From positions 1 to 44,220 of the forward strand of contig QBML01000042.1 in NCBI GenBank assembly GCA_003242085.1: DNA of 44,220 nt. The letters are read 5' to 3'. Both the position numbers and the translations under genes were made by a program. The stretch's first letter is position 1. Each line of letters begins with the position of its first letter. The notes beneath the pieces were generated by a model that saw nothing but the letters and a program-made list of their open reading frames with translations, searched no databases and was not told the origin of the DNA. The DNA is from Pseudanabaena frigida (GTDB taxonomy: Bacteria > Cyanobacteriota > Cyanobacteriia > Pseudanabaenales > Pseudanabaenaceae). This document shows, in pieces, positions 3,250 to 9,628 of the stretch.

Positions 3250-3410
3250 TATGAGCATAGTGCGATCGCGCCTGTTAGCTAGACGCAATAATTGAAGTTA
3301 CAGAACAATCAGAATGAGATACGAAAGTTTTGTATCTTCCATTGGATTAGAATAGTTAGGATATTAGCGATCGCAAAAAAAGACGATTTTGAGAACATTC
3401 ACCGCGATCG

Positions 3411-3433
3411 CCCCTTTCAAGCCTTGATACAAT
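3411..3433. repeat. Left copy of 23-bp direct repeat flanking the RAYT gene
   Basis: This 23-bp stretch ending in CCTTGATACAAT matches 4382-4404 at 20 of 23 positions. The two copies bracket the RAYT gene and its REP palindromes. They could be duplicated target, the outer edge of the REP unit, or a shared promoter-like sequence. Confidence 0.6.
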
Positions 3434-3453
3434 AAATGTGTTGTAGGGTTATT

Positions 3454-3519
3454 GTAGGGGCGGGTTTAGTTGATAATTCTATGCCAGAAGCAGGATATAT
3501 CTGCGAAACCCGCCCCTAC
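3454..3519. repeat. REP palindrome upstream of the RAYT gene
   Basis: GTAGGGGCGGGTTT at 3454-3467 and its exact reverse complement at 3506-3519 form 14-bp inverted arms around a 38-bp centre. Degenerate half copies (CCCCTAC, CTCCTACGCAATCTCAAT) continue to about 3590. This is the classic layout of a REP pair beside a REP-associated tyrosine transposase. The same arms recur inside the transposase coding sequence. Confidence 0.85.
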
Positions 3520-3594
3520 ACAATTTCAATTCTCTACACCCCTACGCAATCTCAATTTCTACAAAATCTGCTCCTACGCAATCTCAATAATGTC

Positions 3595-4359
3595 ATGAAA
3601 TACGATCGCGAAAAACACCATCGTCGCTCTATTCGGCTCAAAGGATACGACTACACATCTGTAGGCAGTTATTTCATCACCATTTGTACTTTTCAACGAG
3701 AATGCCTATTTGGAACAATTAGCAATGGAGAGATACAGTTAAATCAATATGGAAAAATCGCGTATTCTCATTGGCAAAACCTACCTAAATACCATCCCAG
3801 ATTGGAATTAGATGAATTTGTCATAATGCCCAACCACATCCACGGCATTCTATTTTTGATAGATAGCAATGATATTTCTCTGGATCACGACAATTCTGTA
3901 GGGGCGGTTTTAGCAGACAATTTTATCCTTGAGAACCAAAATTCATTTCCAAAACCCGCCCCTACAGACGGTTTAGCAGATAATTTTGTCCTTGAGAACA
4001 AAGATTTATCCGATGCCGTAGGGGCGGGTTTAGCAGACAATTTTGCGCTGAATGCAGGATCTATCTGCAAAACCCGCCCCTACACAATCTCAATTTCTAC
4101 AAAAACCGCTCCTACAAACAATTTAGCAACAGGGAACAATCATGGAATCCCAGAAATTATTCGAGGATTTAAAACATTCTCTGCTCGTCGCGTTAACCAA
4201 ATCCGTCATACATCAGGAATTCCCGTATGGCAGCGCAATTATTACGACCATATCATTCGTGATGAAACATCATTGCAAAAGATTCGCCAGTATATCCAAA
4301 CAAACCCAAATTTATGGCAGGTTGACCAGCTACATCCTAACAATCCCTCTAAATGGTAA
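3595..4359 (+). CDS. REP-associated tyrosine transposase (RAYT) with REP-derived in-frame insert
   Basis: RAYTs are IS200/IS605-like HUH single-strand transposases thought to move REP palindromes. The N-terminus has the family signature HHRRSIRLKGYDYTSVGSYF, then FVIMPNHIHGIL with the HUH metal-binding pair (His-x-His) at about residues 81-83. The C-terminal part contains GIPEIIRGFKTFSARRVNQ, VWQRNYYDHIIRDE with the candidate catalytic tyrosines, and IRQYIQTNPNLW. Between HUH and the tyrosine region sits an insert of roughly 75 residues (about 3892-4125), made of REP sequence read in frame. Without it the protein would have the usual length of about 180 residues. I chose the ATG at 3595 because homology begins there. 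The frame is open upstream through another REP to 3436, so a longer product is formally possible. Activity with this insert is uncertain. Confidence 0.85.
   Translation: MKYDREKHHRRSIRLKGYDYTSVGSYFITICTFQRECLFGTISNGEIQLNQYGKIAYSHWQNLPKYHPRLELDEFVIMPNHIHGILFLIDSNDISLDHDNSVGAVLADNFILENQNSFPKPAPTDGLADNFVLENKDLSDAVGAGLADNFALNAGSICKTRPYTISISTKTAPTNNLATGNNHGIPEIIRGFKTFSARRVNQIRHTSGIPVWQRNYYDHIIRDETSLQKIRQYIQTNPNLWQVDQLHPNNPSKW
3898..3965. repeat. REP palindrome 1 inside the RAYT coding sequence
   Basis: GTAGGGGCGGTTTT at 3898-3911 faces AAAACCCGCCCCTAC at 3951-3965. The element lies wholly within the reading frame and is translated as VGAVLADNF...FPKPAPT. Its centre shares TTAGCAGACAATTTTATCC with the next unit. 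Confidence 0.85.
4018..4083. repeat. REP palindrome 2 inside the RAYT coding sequence
   Basis: GTAGGGGCGGGTTT at 4018-4031 faces AAAACCCGCCCCTAC at 4069-4083. It is in the same reading frame as the upstream REP: both encode VGAGL.DN..........ICKTRPYTISI-like peptides. A further half copy, AAAAACCGCTCCTAC, is at 4101-4115. Confidence 0.85.
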
Positions 4360-4381: not shown

Positions 4382-4404
4382 ACCTTTTCAAACCTTGATA
4401 CAAT
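4382..4404. repeat. Right copy of 23-bp direct repeat flanking the RAYT gene
   Basis: This copy matches 3411-3433 at 20 of 23 positions, with CCTTGATACAAT exact. It lies 22 bases after the RAYT stop codon. Confidence 0.6.
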
Positions 4405-6358: not shown

Positions 6359-6399
6359 CTATATCTACATAAGTAGCTGGGCGCAATTAAATATAAACC

Positions 6400-6443
6400 C
6401 CAAAAACCTGTGGCAAACACGCAGTGTGCGCCACAGGTTTTGG
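6400..6443. repeat. Intergenic inverted repeat
   Basis: CAAAAACCTGTGGC and GCCACAGGTTTTG form arms of about 14 bases around a 15-base centre that itself contains GCAGTGTGC. No clear T-tract follows. It may be a second terminator or a small palindromic repeat. The rest of 6359-6626 shows no gene that I can support. Confidence 0.55.
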
Positions 6444-6626
6444 TTCAGTTTTTTAATTATGCCCCGCCAATTACTGACTGAGAAGGGAGTAAACCAAAAA
6501 TGGTTAAGTTTATAAATGTGTAGGTAGAGAGTAGAAAATCAAGGGAGTGAGATAATAGGAGTGTTGAGATTAAAATCCAAAATTAATTTTGGATCTCAAT
6601 GAACTAATAGTGCAAGGTGAATTTGT

Positions 6627-9496: not shown

Positions 9497-9538
9497 ATTT
9501 TGCAGTAATTGGCTTTTGTTTTGAAACTATAGCTACAT

Positions 9539-9591
9539 AAAACCCAACAGAGAGTTGCGGCGCTTTGCGCCGCAACTCTCTGTTGGGTTTT
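9539..9591. terminator. Long perfect hairpin (25-bp stem, TTT loop)
   Basis: The arms AAAACCCAACAGAGAGTTGC... at 9539-9563 and their exact complement at 9567-9591 flank a TTT loop. A T-rich stretch (TTTTGCTTTTG) follows on the plus strand. The stem is unusually long for a terminator, so it may also belong to a palindromic repeat family. Confidence 0.65.
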
Positions 9592-9628
9592 GCTTTTGTC
9601 CTAGCTCGAAAATAAAATTTGTGAAAAA

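Follow-up and report, generated by a model that had tools for sequence, protein, structure and literature searches.

In-Frame REP Palindromes in a Cyanobacterial RAYT Gene and Signs of Conserved Pairing in the RAYT Loop

A RAYT gene of Pseudanabaena frigida carries two REP doublets and a half copy in frame within its own coding sequence, and across the RAYT family the loop palindrome tends, as far as sequence comparison indicates, to stay at one site, in the same frame and with its arms paired, even as its sequence shifts. The explanation that we tentatively prefer, at a probability just short of even, is that the RAYT gene maintains in-frame REP doublets of its own kind and that the hairpin itself is selected, as a self-target or as an autoregulatory site. 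The window, that is, the whole stretch of DNA analyzed (44,220 nucleotides), is one whole contig of a 5.39-Mb genome.

The RAYT Gene of the Window and Its REPs

The gene lies in an open reading frame at 3436-4359 with a conserved start codon at 3595, and its predicted product is a RAYT-type HUH-Y1 transposase. The features of the locus are as follows:

3412..3433, + strand: first of two 22-nt direct repeats framing the RAYT gene, on its left, belonging to a 50-nt repeat at 3385-3434
3454..3519, + strand: leader REP doublet (inverted-repeat and doublet search)
3595..4359, + strand: RAYT / TnpA_REP gene, 254 aa (Pfam Y1_Tnp; NCBIfam REP_Tyr_transpos, partial; AlphaFold/Foldseek match to 4er8)
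3835..3843, + strand: HUH motif H81-I82-H83 (H81 and H83 are invariant columns in alignments A1 and A3)
3865..4143, + strand: in-frame insert, residues 91-183, from the HUH strand to the next helix (missing in the other aligned RAYTs of the genus; model disorder; omega)
3898..3965, + strand: REP doublet 1, GTAG..CTAC, with one broken arm pair (inverted-repeat and doublet search)
3966..4017, + strand: degenerate half copy, a 63-nt tandem duplicate of the REP 1 interior (33/38 bases)
4018..4083, + strand: REP doublet 2, with its double foot intact, predicted to form a strong hairpin (RNA fold, -41.5 kcal/mol)
4077..4115, + strand: end of REP 2 and 3' tail common to the leader at 3539-3577 (36/39 bases)
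4228..4233, + strand: W212-Q213, invariant in A1 and A3, tied to GTAG recognition in the literature (PMC6006769)
4291..4293, + strand: predicted catalytic tyrosine Y233 in the motif YIQTNP (invariant column in A1 and A3)
4383..4404, + strand: second of the two 22-nt direct repeats, on the right of the RAYT gene (repeat comparison within the window)

The RAYT protein scored 25.7 bits against Pfam Y1_Tnp (PF01797), above the gathering cut-off of 23. Against the NCBIfam equivalog REP_Tyr_transpos (NF047646) it reached 63 bits over two stretches, under the 80-bit cut-off, and it is therefore not assigned to that family. A PDB sequence search with the protein gave no match at E up to 0.1. An AlphaFold model built with 39 sequences (mean pLDDT 74.5) had a confident core and a disordered segment, residues 98-170 (pLDDT below 50), between the HUH strand 81-88 and the helix 185-204. 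When this model was compared to the PDB with Foldseek, the top matches were IS200/IS605 transposases, and the RAYT 4er8 ranked seventh (E 1.6e-4). The model thus matches the E. coli TnpA_REP 4er8, an HUH-Y1 fold on a REP hairpin.

The motifs agree in part with those described for TnpA_REP subclass 2.4, for which PMC6006769 gives RAYT group 4 (Bertels et al. 2017) as the counterpart. The NH[IFV]H motif of the subclass was found as PNHIHG, with H81 and H83, and the WQ motif ahead of the tyrosine as the invariant W212-Q213. The tyrosine motif YIQTNP fits the class 2 pattern Y---NP, the first N of the subclass 2.4 consensus YIxNNP being replaced by T. In-frame REPs between the HuH and Y motifs, another trait of the subclass, are present, and GTAG..CTAC feet on the leader REP and on both in-gene doublets provide its double-foot and flanking-REP traits. 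The repeats themselves show the GTAG foot, paired arms, inverted doublet and several genomic copies that define GTAG REPs and REPINs. On these motifs and on its in-frame and flanking REPs, the gene is placed as a RAYT, putatively of the subclass 2.4 kind.

A first-pass annotation had described two REP pairs and a half copy lying in frame after the HUH motif and ahead of the tyrosine region, and this was confirmed by the open reading frame, by the inverted repeats in the gene (3895-3924/3939-3968 and 4018-4037/4064-4083) and upstream of it (3453-3475/3498-3520), and by the phase, which is 0 relative to 3595 for the leader REP, REP 1 and REP 2. The leader REP and REP 2 are spaced by exactly 188 codons and share 54/66 bases. 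As also annotated, they translate into nearly the same peptide (VGAGL..CETRPYTISI and VGAGL..CKTRPYTISI). Since the tail of REP 2 at 4077-4115 matches the leader at 3539-3577 at 36/39 bases, the shared tract exceeds the REP alone. The half copy lies 63 nt from the REP 1 interior, which it equals at 33/38 bases, and looks like a 21-codon tandem duplication.

The Insert among Relatives of the Gene

An insert-bearing RAYT was found in three of the 26 genomes of the genus: the window genome (G000), G011 (90% amino acid identity) and G014 (86%). The other aligned RAYTs of the genus have a short loop from which the insert is missing. In the pairwise comparisons of the three carriers, dN/dS was 0.13-0.21 in the core, and 0.84, 1.47 and 2.27 in the insert, each of the latter values resting on 3-6 silent changes and 17-25 replacements. 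The insert had roughly three to four times the core's density of replacement changes (p 0.0002-0.004), and its silent changes were sparser (odds ratios 0.47, 0.50 and 0.15; p 0.17, 0.23 and 0.001). As silent changes are also fewer there than in the core, the omega values above 1 were not read as positive selection. Purifying selection acts on the catalytic core and not on the loop peptide.

These values near or above 1, together with the pLDDT below 50 of residues 98-170, support the tolerant loop proposed by the first-pass annotation, and the model leaves most of the insert disordered. The same annotation had held that REPs were inserted into their own gene at this loop; the RAYT and the loop stand, but a private event does not, because the insert is common to the G000, G011 and G014 copies. 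Both other carriers have these REPs and the insert peptide shows no purifying selection, the reverse of what had been named as evidence against an insertion.

Of the two in-gene doublets, each of the three species has one whose feet and 14-nt arms are intact, namely REP 2 in the window and REP 1 in G011 and G014. The other doublet is damaged, with an arm mismatch in REP 1 of the window, a GTGG foot in G011 and a lost foot in G014.

The gene with its REPs has very probably moved between congeners. Its core dS was 0.17 between G000 and G014, whereas four other genes of the same pair gave 1.4-2.0 (a neighbor gene that we take to be MTHFR-like, and three more); between G000 and G011 it was 0.21, against 0.28-1.13 for five other genes. 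Horizontal transfer is indicated since the RAYT core dS lies below that of the other genes, and the comparison points to a signal that is strong for G014 and weak for G011. The G000 and G011 RAYTs occupy the same neighborhood, upstream of the same MTHFR-like gene. The G014 copy sits elsewhere, its 3' end being short by a few codons and fused to a DUF433 remnant.

In G015, 49 bp that match the 3' half of the RAYT gene (L259, 531-579), also upstream of the MTHFR-like gene, are probably the trace of a RAYT lost at the locus of the window. We had considered that RAYT and REPs move as a unit, as the flanks of the three copies seemed unrelated, and dropped this idea in view of the common G000/G011 neighborhood and the G015 fragment. 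In G019, the stretch that corresponds to about 1 kb of the window is 199 bp long; it was rejected as a clean empty site, and its blurred borders mean that no insertion mechanism is inferred there. The 50-nt repeat at 3385-3434 occurs several times in congeners, in regions with DUF433 or TPR-like matches, and its end recurs at 4383-4404.

REPs across the Genomes of the Genus

REPs were counted with up to one mismatch in arms and up to two mismatches per arm in doublets. The window genome has eight REP places, three of them at the RAYT locus. Exact REP arms numbered eight in this genome (five at the RAYT locus), 11 in G011, 44 in G014 and eight each in G015 and G019; five genomes had one to three, and 16 of the 26 had none. 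The spread of REPs in the window genome, assumed in the first-pass annotation, is therefore weak, with eight places in 5.4 Mb and three of these at this locus.

Most of the dispersed doublets read in the genus occupy the core of a larger repeat whose ends, TTACGTGGAA..TTCCACGTAA, appear to be inverted (L264-L282 in G014, with the exception of L274; L084 at 12743; L086 at 2788), which resembles a MITE that would have captured a REPIN. The three insert carriers differed from the 23 other genomes in REP counts (Mann-Whitney, p 0.004), a value that is only suggestive because most of the G014 REPs read lie inside the larger repeat and the counts partly tally another element. For the same reason, dispersed REPs were rejected as a sign that the RAYT is active. 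G014 has 25 REP places outside the RAYT gene, and none of the 20 read lay within an open frame of at least 100 codons reaching 20 codons past both sides.

Two other repeats were seen in the window. One of about 94-107 bp at 6370-6463 has many copies in G014, G022 and G023, and one of about 67 bp at 9535-9603 is dispersed in several copies in G019, G022 and G023.

Loop Palindromes across the RAYT Family

A survey of the class covered 388 genomes, 213 of which had a match to the core model, with loci chosen by match rank. The 154 distinct ORFs were reduced to 136 by excluding those with less than 120 bits, no HUH match or no helix pattern match. A second sample consisted of the best 80 of 575 confirmed loci, drawn from named records across many phyla and partly overlapping the class sample; the alignment used for its search contained insert-bearing rows, and 79 of the 80 loci were usable (L304 was without an intact ORF). 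Pooling the 215 gave 208 distinct genes. Because loci were picked by rank or as best matches, the percentages are not unbiased prevalences.

At an arm score of 11 or more, an inverted repeat was found in the loop of 58 of the 136 class RAYTs, in no N part and in three C parts, with codon-shuffling expectations per 136 genes of 0.2, 0.6 and 0.4, respectively. By this control, the loop inverted repeats are not due to chance. The loop makes up 20% of the bases, yet holds 58 of the 61 repeats (p about 2e-37). Among the 79 usable loci of the best 80 of 575, inverted repeats were present in 46 loops, one N part and no C part.

In the 208 pooled genes, a search that ignored the foot gave 98 loops with an inverted repeat and 110 without one by that test. 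GTAG or GTGG lay no more than 8 nt from the outer end in 78 of the 98, and GTAGGGGC was present in 66 of them. A double-foot palindrome was detected in 74 genes and was absent from 134, and the inner bases of the loop palindromes were highly variable. The foot of the 74 double-foot palindromes was read in one frame 50 times, in a second 24 times and never in the third, which is the frame reading TAG. Most members thus have no double-foot palindrome, and its presence comes and goes.

Three RAYT copies within 5 kb were seen in G030 (L078, 1668-6286), one of them 5'-broken, each with a compact in-frame palindrome, one mismatched. In G036 (L080, 1040-1085), a second REP-like imperfect palindrome codes for part of the RAYT C-terminal tail, the loop having one too. 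The loops of L217, L131, L124 and L141 also contain in-frame repeated peptides, e.g., CPHMV, NSVGSHGPT and HELPL, so the RAYT loop accepts other repeats as well.

Conservation of Frame, Place and Pairing

The frame of the palindrome agreed in 50 of 50 gene pairs with a core identity of at least 70% (the pairs overlap), while the arm sequences mostly differed. On the core tree, the frame changed eight times, compared to at least 16 in 200 shuffles, and the presence of the palindrome 32 times, compared to at least 52.

Pairing was analyzed in 70 genes, each compared to its nearest neighbor, with a palindrome needed in one partner only. The test gave 732 paired positions unchanged, 88 with a single change, 37 with complementary double changes, 10 with non-complementary double changes and 149 gapped. 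Complementary changes accounted for 37 of the 47 double changes (p about 2e-10 against one third), a p value that is optimistic given the reciprocal pairs and the majority of single changes. In 18 same-frame sister pairs with a palindrome in both partners, 12 compensated and 11 single changes were counted, with compensation in seven pairs. Compensated changes are seen in place in the alignments, e.g., in those of L120/L140, L123/L140 and L113/L118.

The in-gene palindrome was the sole exact copy of its type in five of nine genomes checked. The compact double-foot pattern was also searched in 14 genomes. In G107 and G102 (one place each) and in G079 (two), all places were inside RAYT genes; the other 11 genomes had two to 80 places among the matches listed. 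Dispersed palindromes of G322 and G303 are one compensated pair away from the in-gene one, two of the eight in G322 having an additional single change, and other dispersed copies of G100 are identical to its in-gene palindrome. The in-gene arm recurred in the flanks of 32 of 74 genes (control, 0.8), two of the 32 being the neighboring RAYT copies in L078, so conversion is possible. In G168 (L146), a compact flank palindrome is one compensated pair off the in-gene one.

Explanations for the In-Gene Palindromes

A site and frame that are kept, arms that change together and in-gene palindromes that are sole exact copies favor selection of the hairpin over passive absorption. In the mechanism that we propose, the RAYT would recognize the hairpin in its own gene, and this recognition would keep the hairpin. 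By a DNA route, the hairpin may serve as a self-target that accompanies the gene and from which a newly entered genome is seeded with REPs; by an mRNA or DNA route, it may serve as an autoregulatory site. The cost to the protein would be small because the REPs sit in a floppy loop. On the opposite side, single changes (88) exceed compensated ones (37) in a one-sided comparison with 149 gapped positions and partly reciprocal pairs, compensated and single changes are about equal in the 18 sister pairs, and the doublets of the three insert carriers show single damage. The palindrome is also absent from most members and its presence changes 32 times, and it is therefore not essential.

A serious rival is insertion with conversion from other REPs. 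What looks like compensation could also result if REPs were re-inserted or converted at a fixed site. In this passive-tolerance view, REPs would jump or be copied widely, survive within the RAYT gene mainly in this loop, decay, and be replaced or converted by flanking or dispersed copies. Quentin et al. (PMC6006769) have published a similar view, and we regard it as quite possible, though we would not bet on it. The unconstrained and disordered loop peptide, the recurrence of the arm in the flanks of 32 of 74 genes, the match of REP 2 plus its tail to the leader, the 32 presence changes, the identity of the dispersed G100 copies to the in-gene palindrome and the excess of single changes are all in agreement with passive tolerance. 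However, none of the 20 dispersed G014 REPs read (of 25 outside the RAYT) lay in open frames of at least 100 codons, whereas the RAYT gene there has two doublets; in-gene palindromes that are sometimes the sole exact genomic copy are still perfect, and compensated when compared to relatives; and the frame is conserved clade by clade.

It is also conceivable, if improbable, that the hairpin slows translation or alters the stability of the transposase mRNA with no need for RAYT binding. Strong predicted hairpins (-41.5 kcal/mol at REP 2) and pairing kept by compensation fit such a role, but an RNA hairpin needs no GTAG foot, yet GTAG or GTGG stands at the outer end of 78 of the 98 loop repeats found by the foot-free search. 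A functional peptide domain encoded by the repeats by chance, which the retention of the insert in three species might suggest, is very improbable and was rejected on the insert omega (0.84-2.27) and the use of two reading frames in the family (50 and 24), the model being disordered there as well.

Relation to Known Systems

The first-pass annotation took REPs to be known beside RAYT genes and not within them. In-gene REPs had in fact already been published for subclass 2.4: Quentin et al. 2018 (PMC6006769) describe in-frame REP insertions in tnpA_REP genes, generally between the HuH and Y motifs, as characteristic of this subclass, and suggest that they have little impact on activity. The gene of the window resembles the published members in these in-frame REPs, in the GTAG/CTAC double feet, the long variable beta3-alphaC region and the flanking REPs, and in belonging to the Cyanobacteria, where the subclass is common; it differs by having two doublets plus a tandem half copy, and YIQTNP instead of YIxNNP. 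It is thus an ordinary instance of a published feature, whereas the site, frame and pairing kept family-wide are not reported in the relevant passages of PMC6006769. Those passages yielded no test of whether in-gene REP pairing is conserved, PMC8266576 makes no mention of in-gene REPs in its relevant passages, and no published test of this kind was found by title and opening of the abstract. The E. coli TnpA_REP belongs to subclass 2.2 and is set apart by the published description, in which in-gene REPs are reported for subclass 2.4 (PMC6006769).

Intragenic GTAG and CGTC REPs, with GTAG palindromes in ORFs of several species, were reported by Di Nocera et al. 2013 (PMC3733652). Those REPs are scattered over unrelated genes, unlike the single recurrent site in the enzyme's own gene seen here. 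Rickettsia palindromic elements (cited in PMC3733652) are likewise palindromic repeats inserted in frame of proteins, but they are CGTC-tagged and occupy many host genes, and CGTC repeats apparently have no dedicated transposase (PMC3733652).

Significance

In a broader form of the preferred explanation, which we consider possible but less than evenly probable, the in-gene palindrome would be a cis-element under selection throughout the RAYT subclass, a hairpin for recognition, private and co-evolving, that lies within the coding sequence. The gene would travel with its own substrate, controlled by it or seeding REPs from it, even where the genome has no other copies. An old puzzle is how a low-copy, apparently non-mobile RAYT stays matched to its palindromes. 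If the gene does carry its own recognition hairpin, the match between enzyme and palindrome would be built in, and a transferred gene would bring its substrate along. The specificity of each RAYT would then be legible in its own coding sequence, and cognate enzyme-hairpin pairs could be predicted for binding and cleavage tests. Beyond the individual case, what deserves to be followed is the evidence for conserved pairing.
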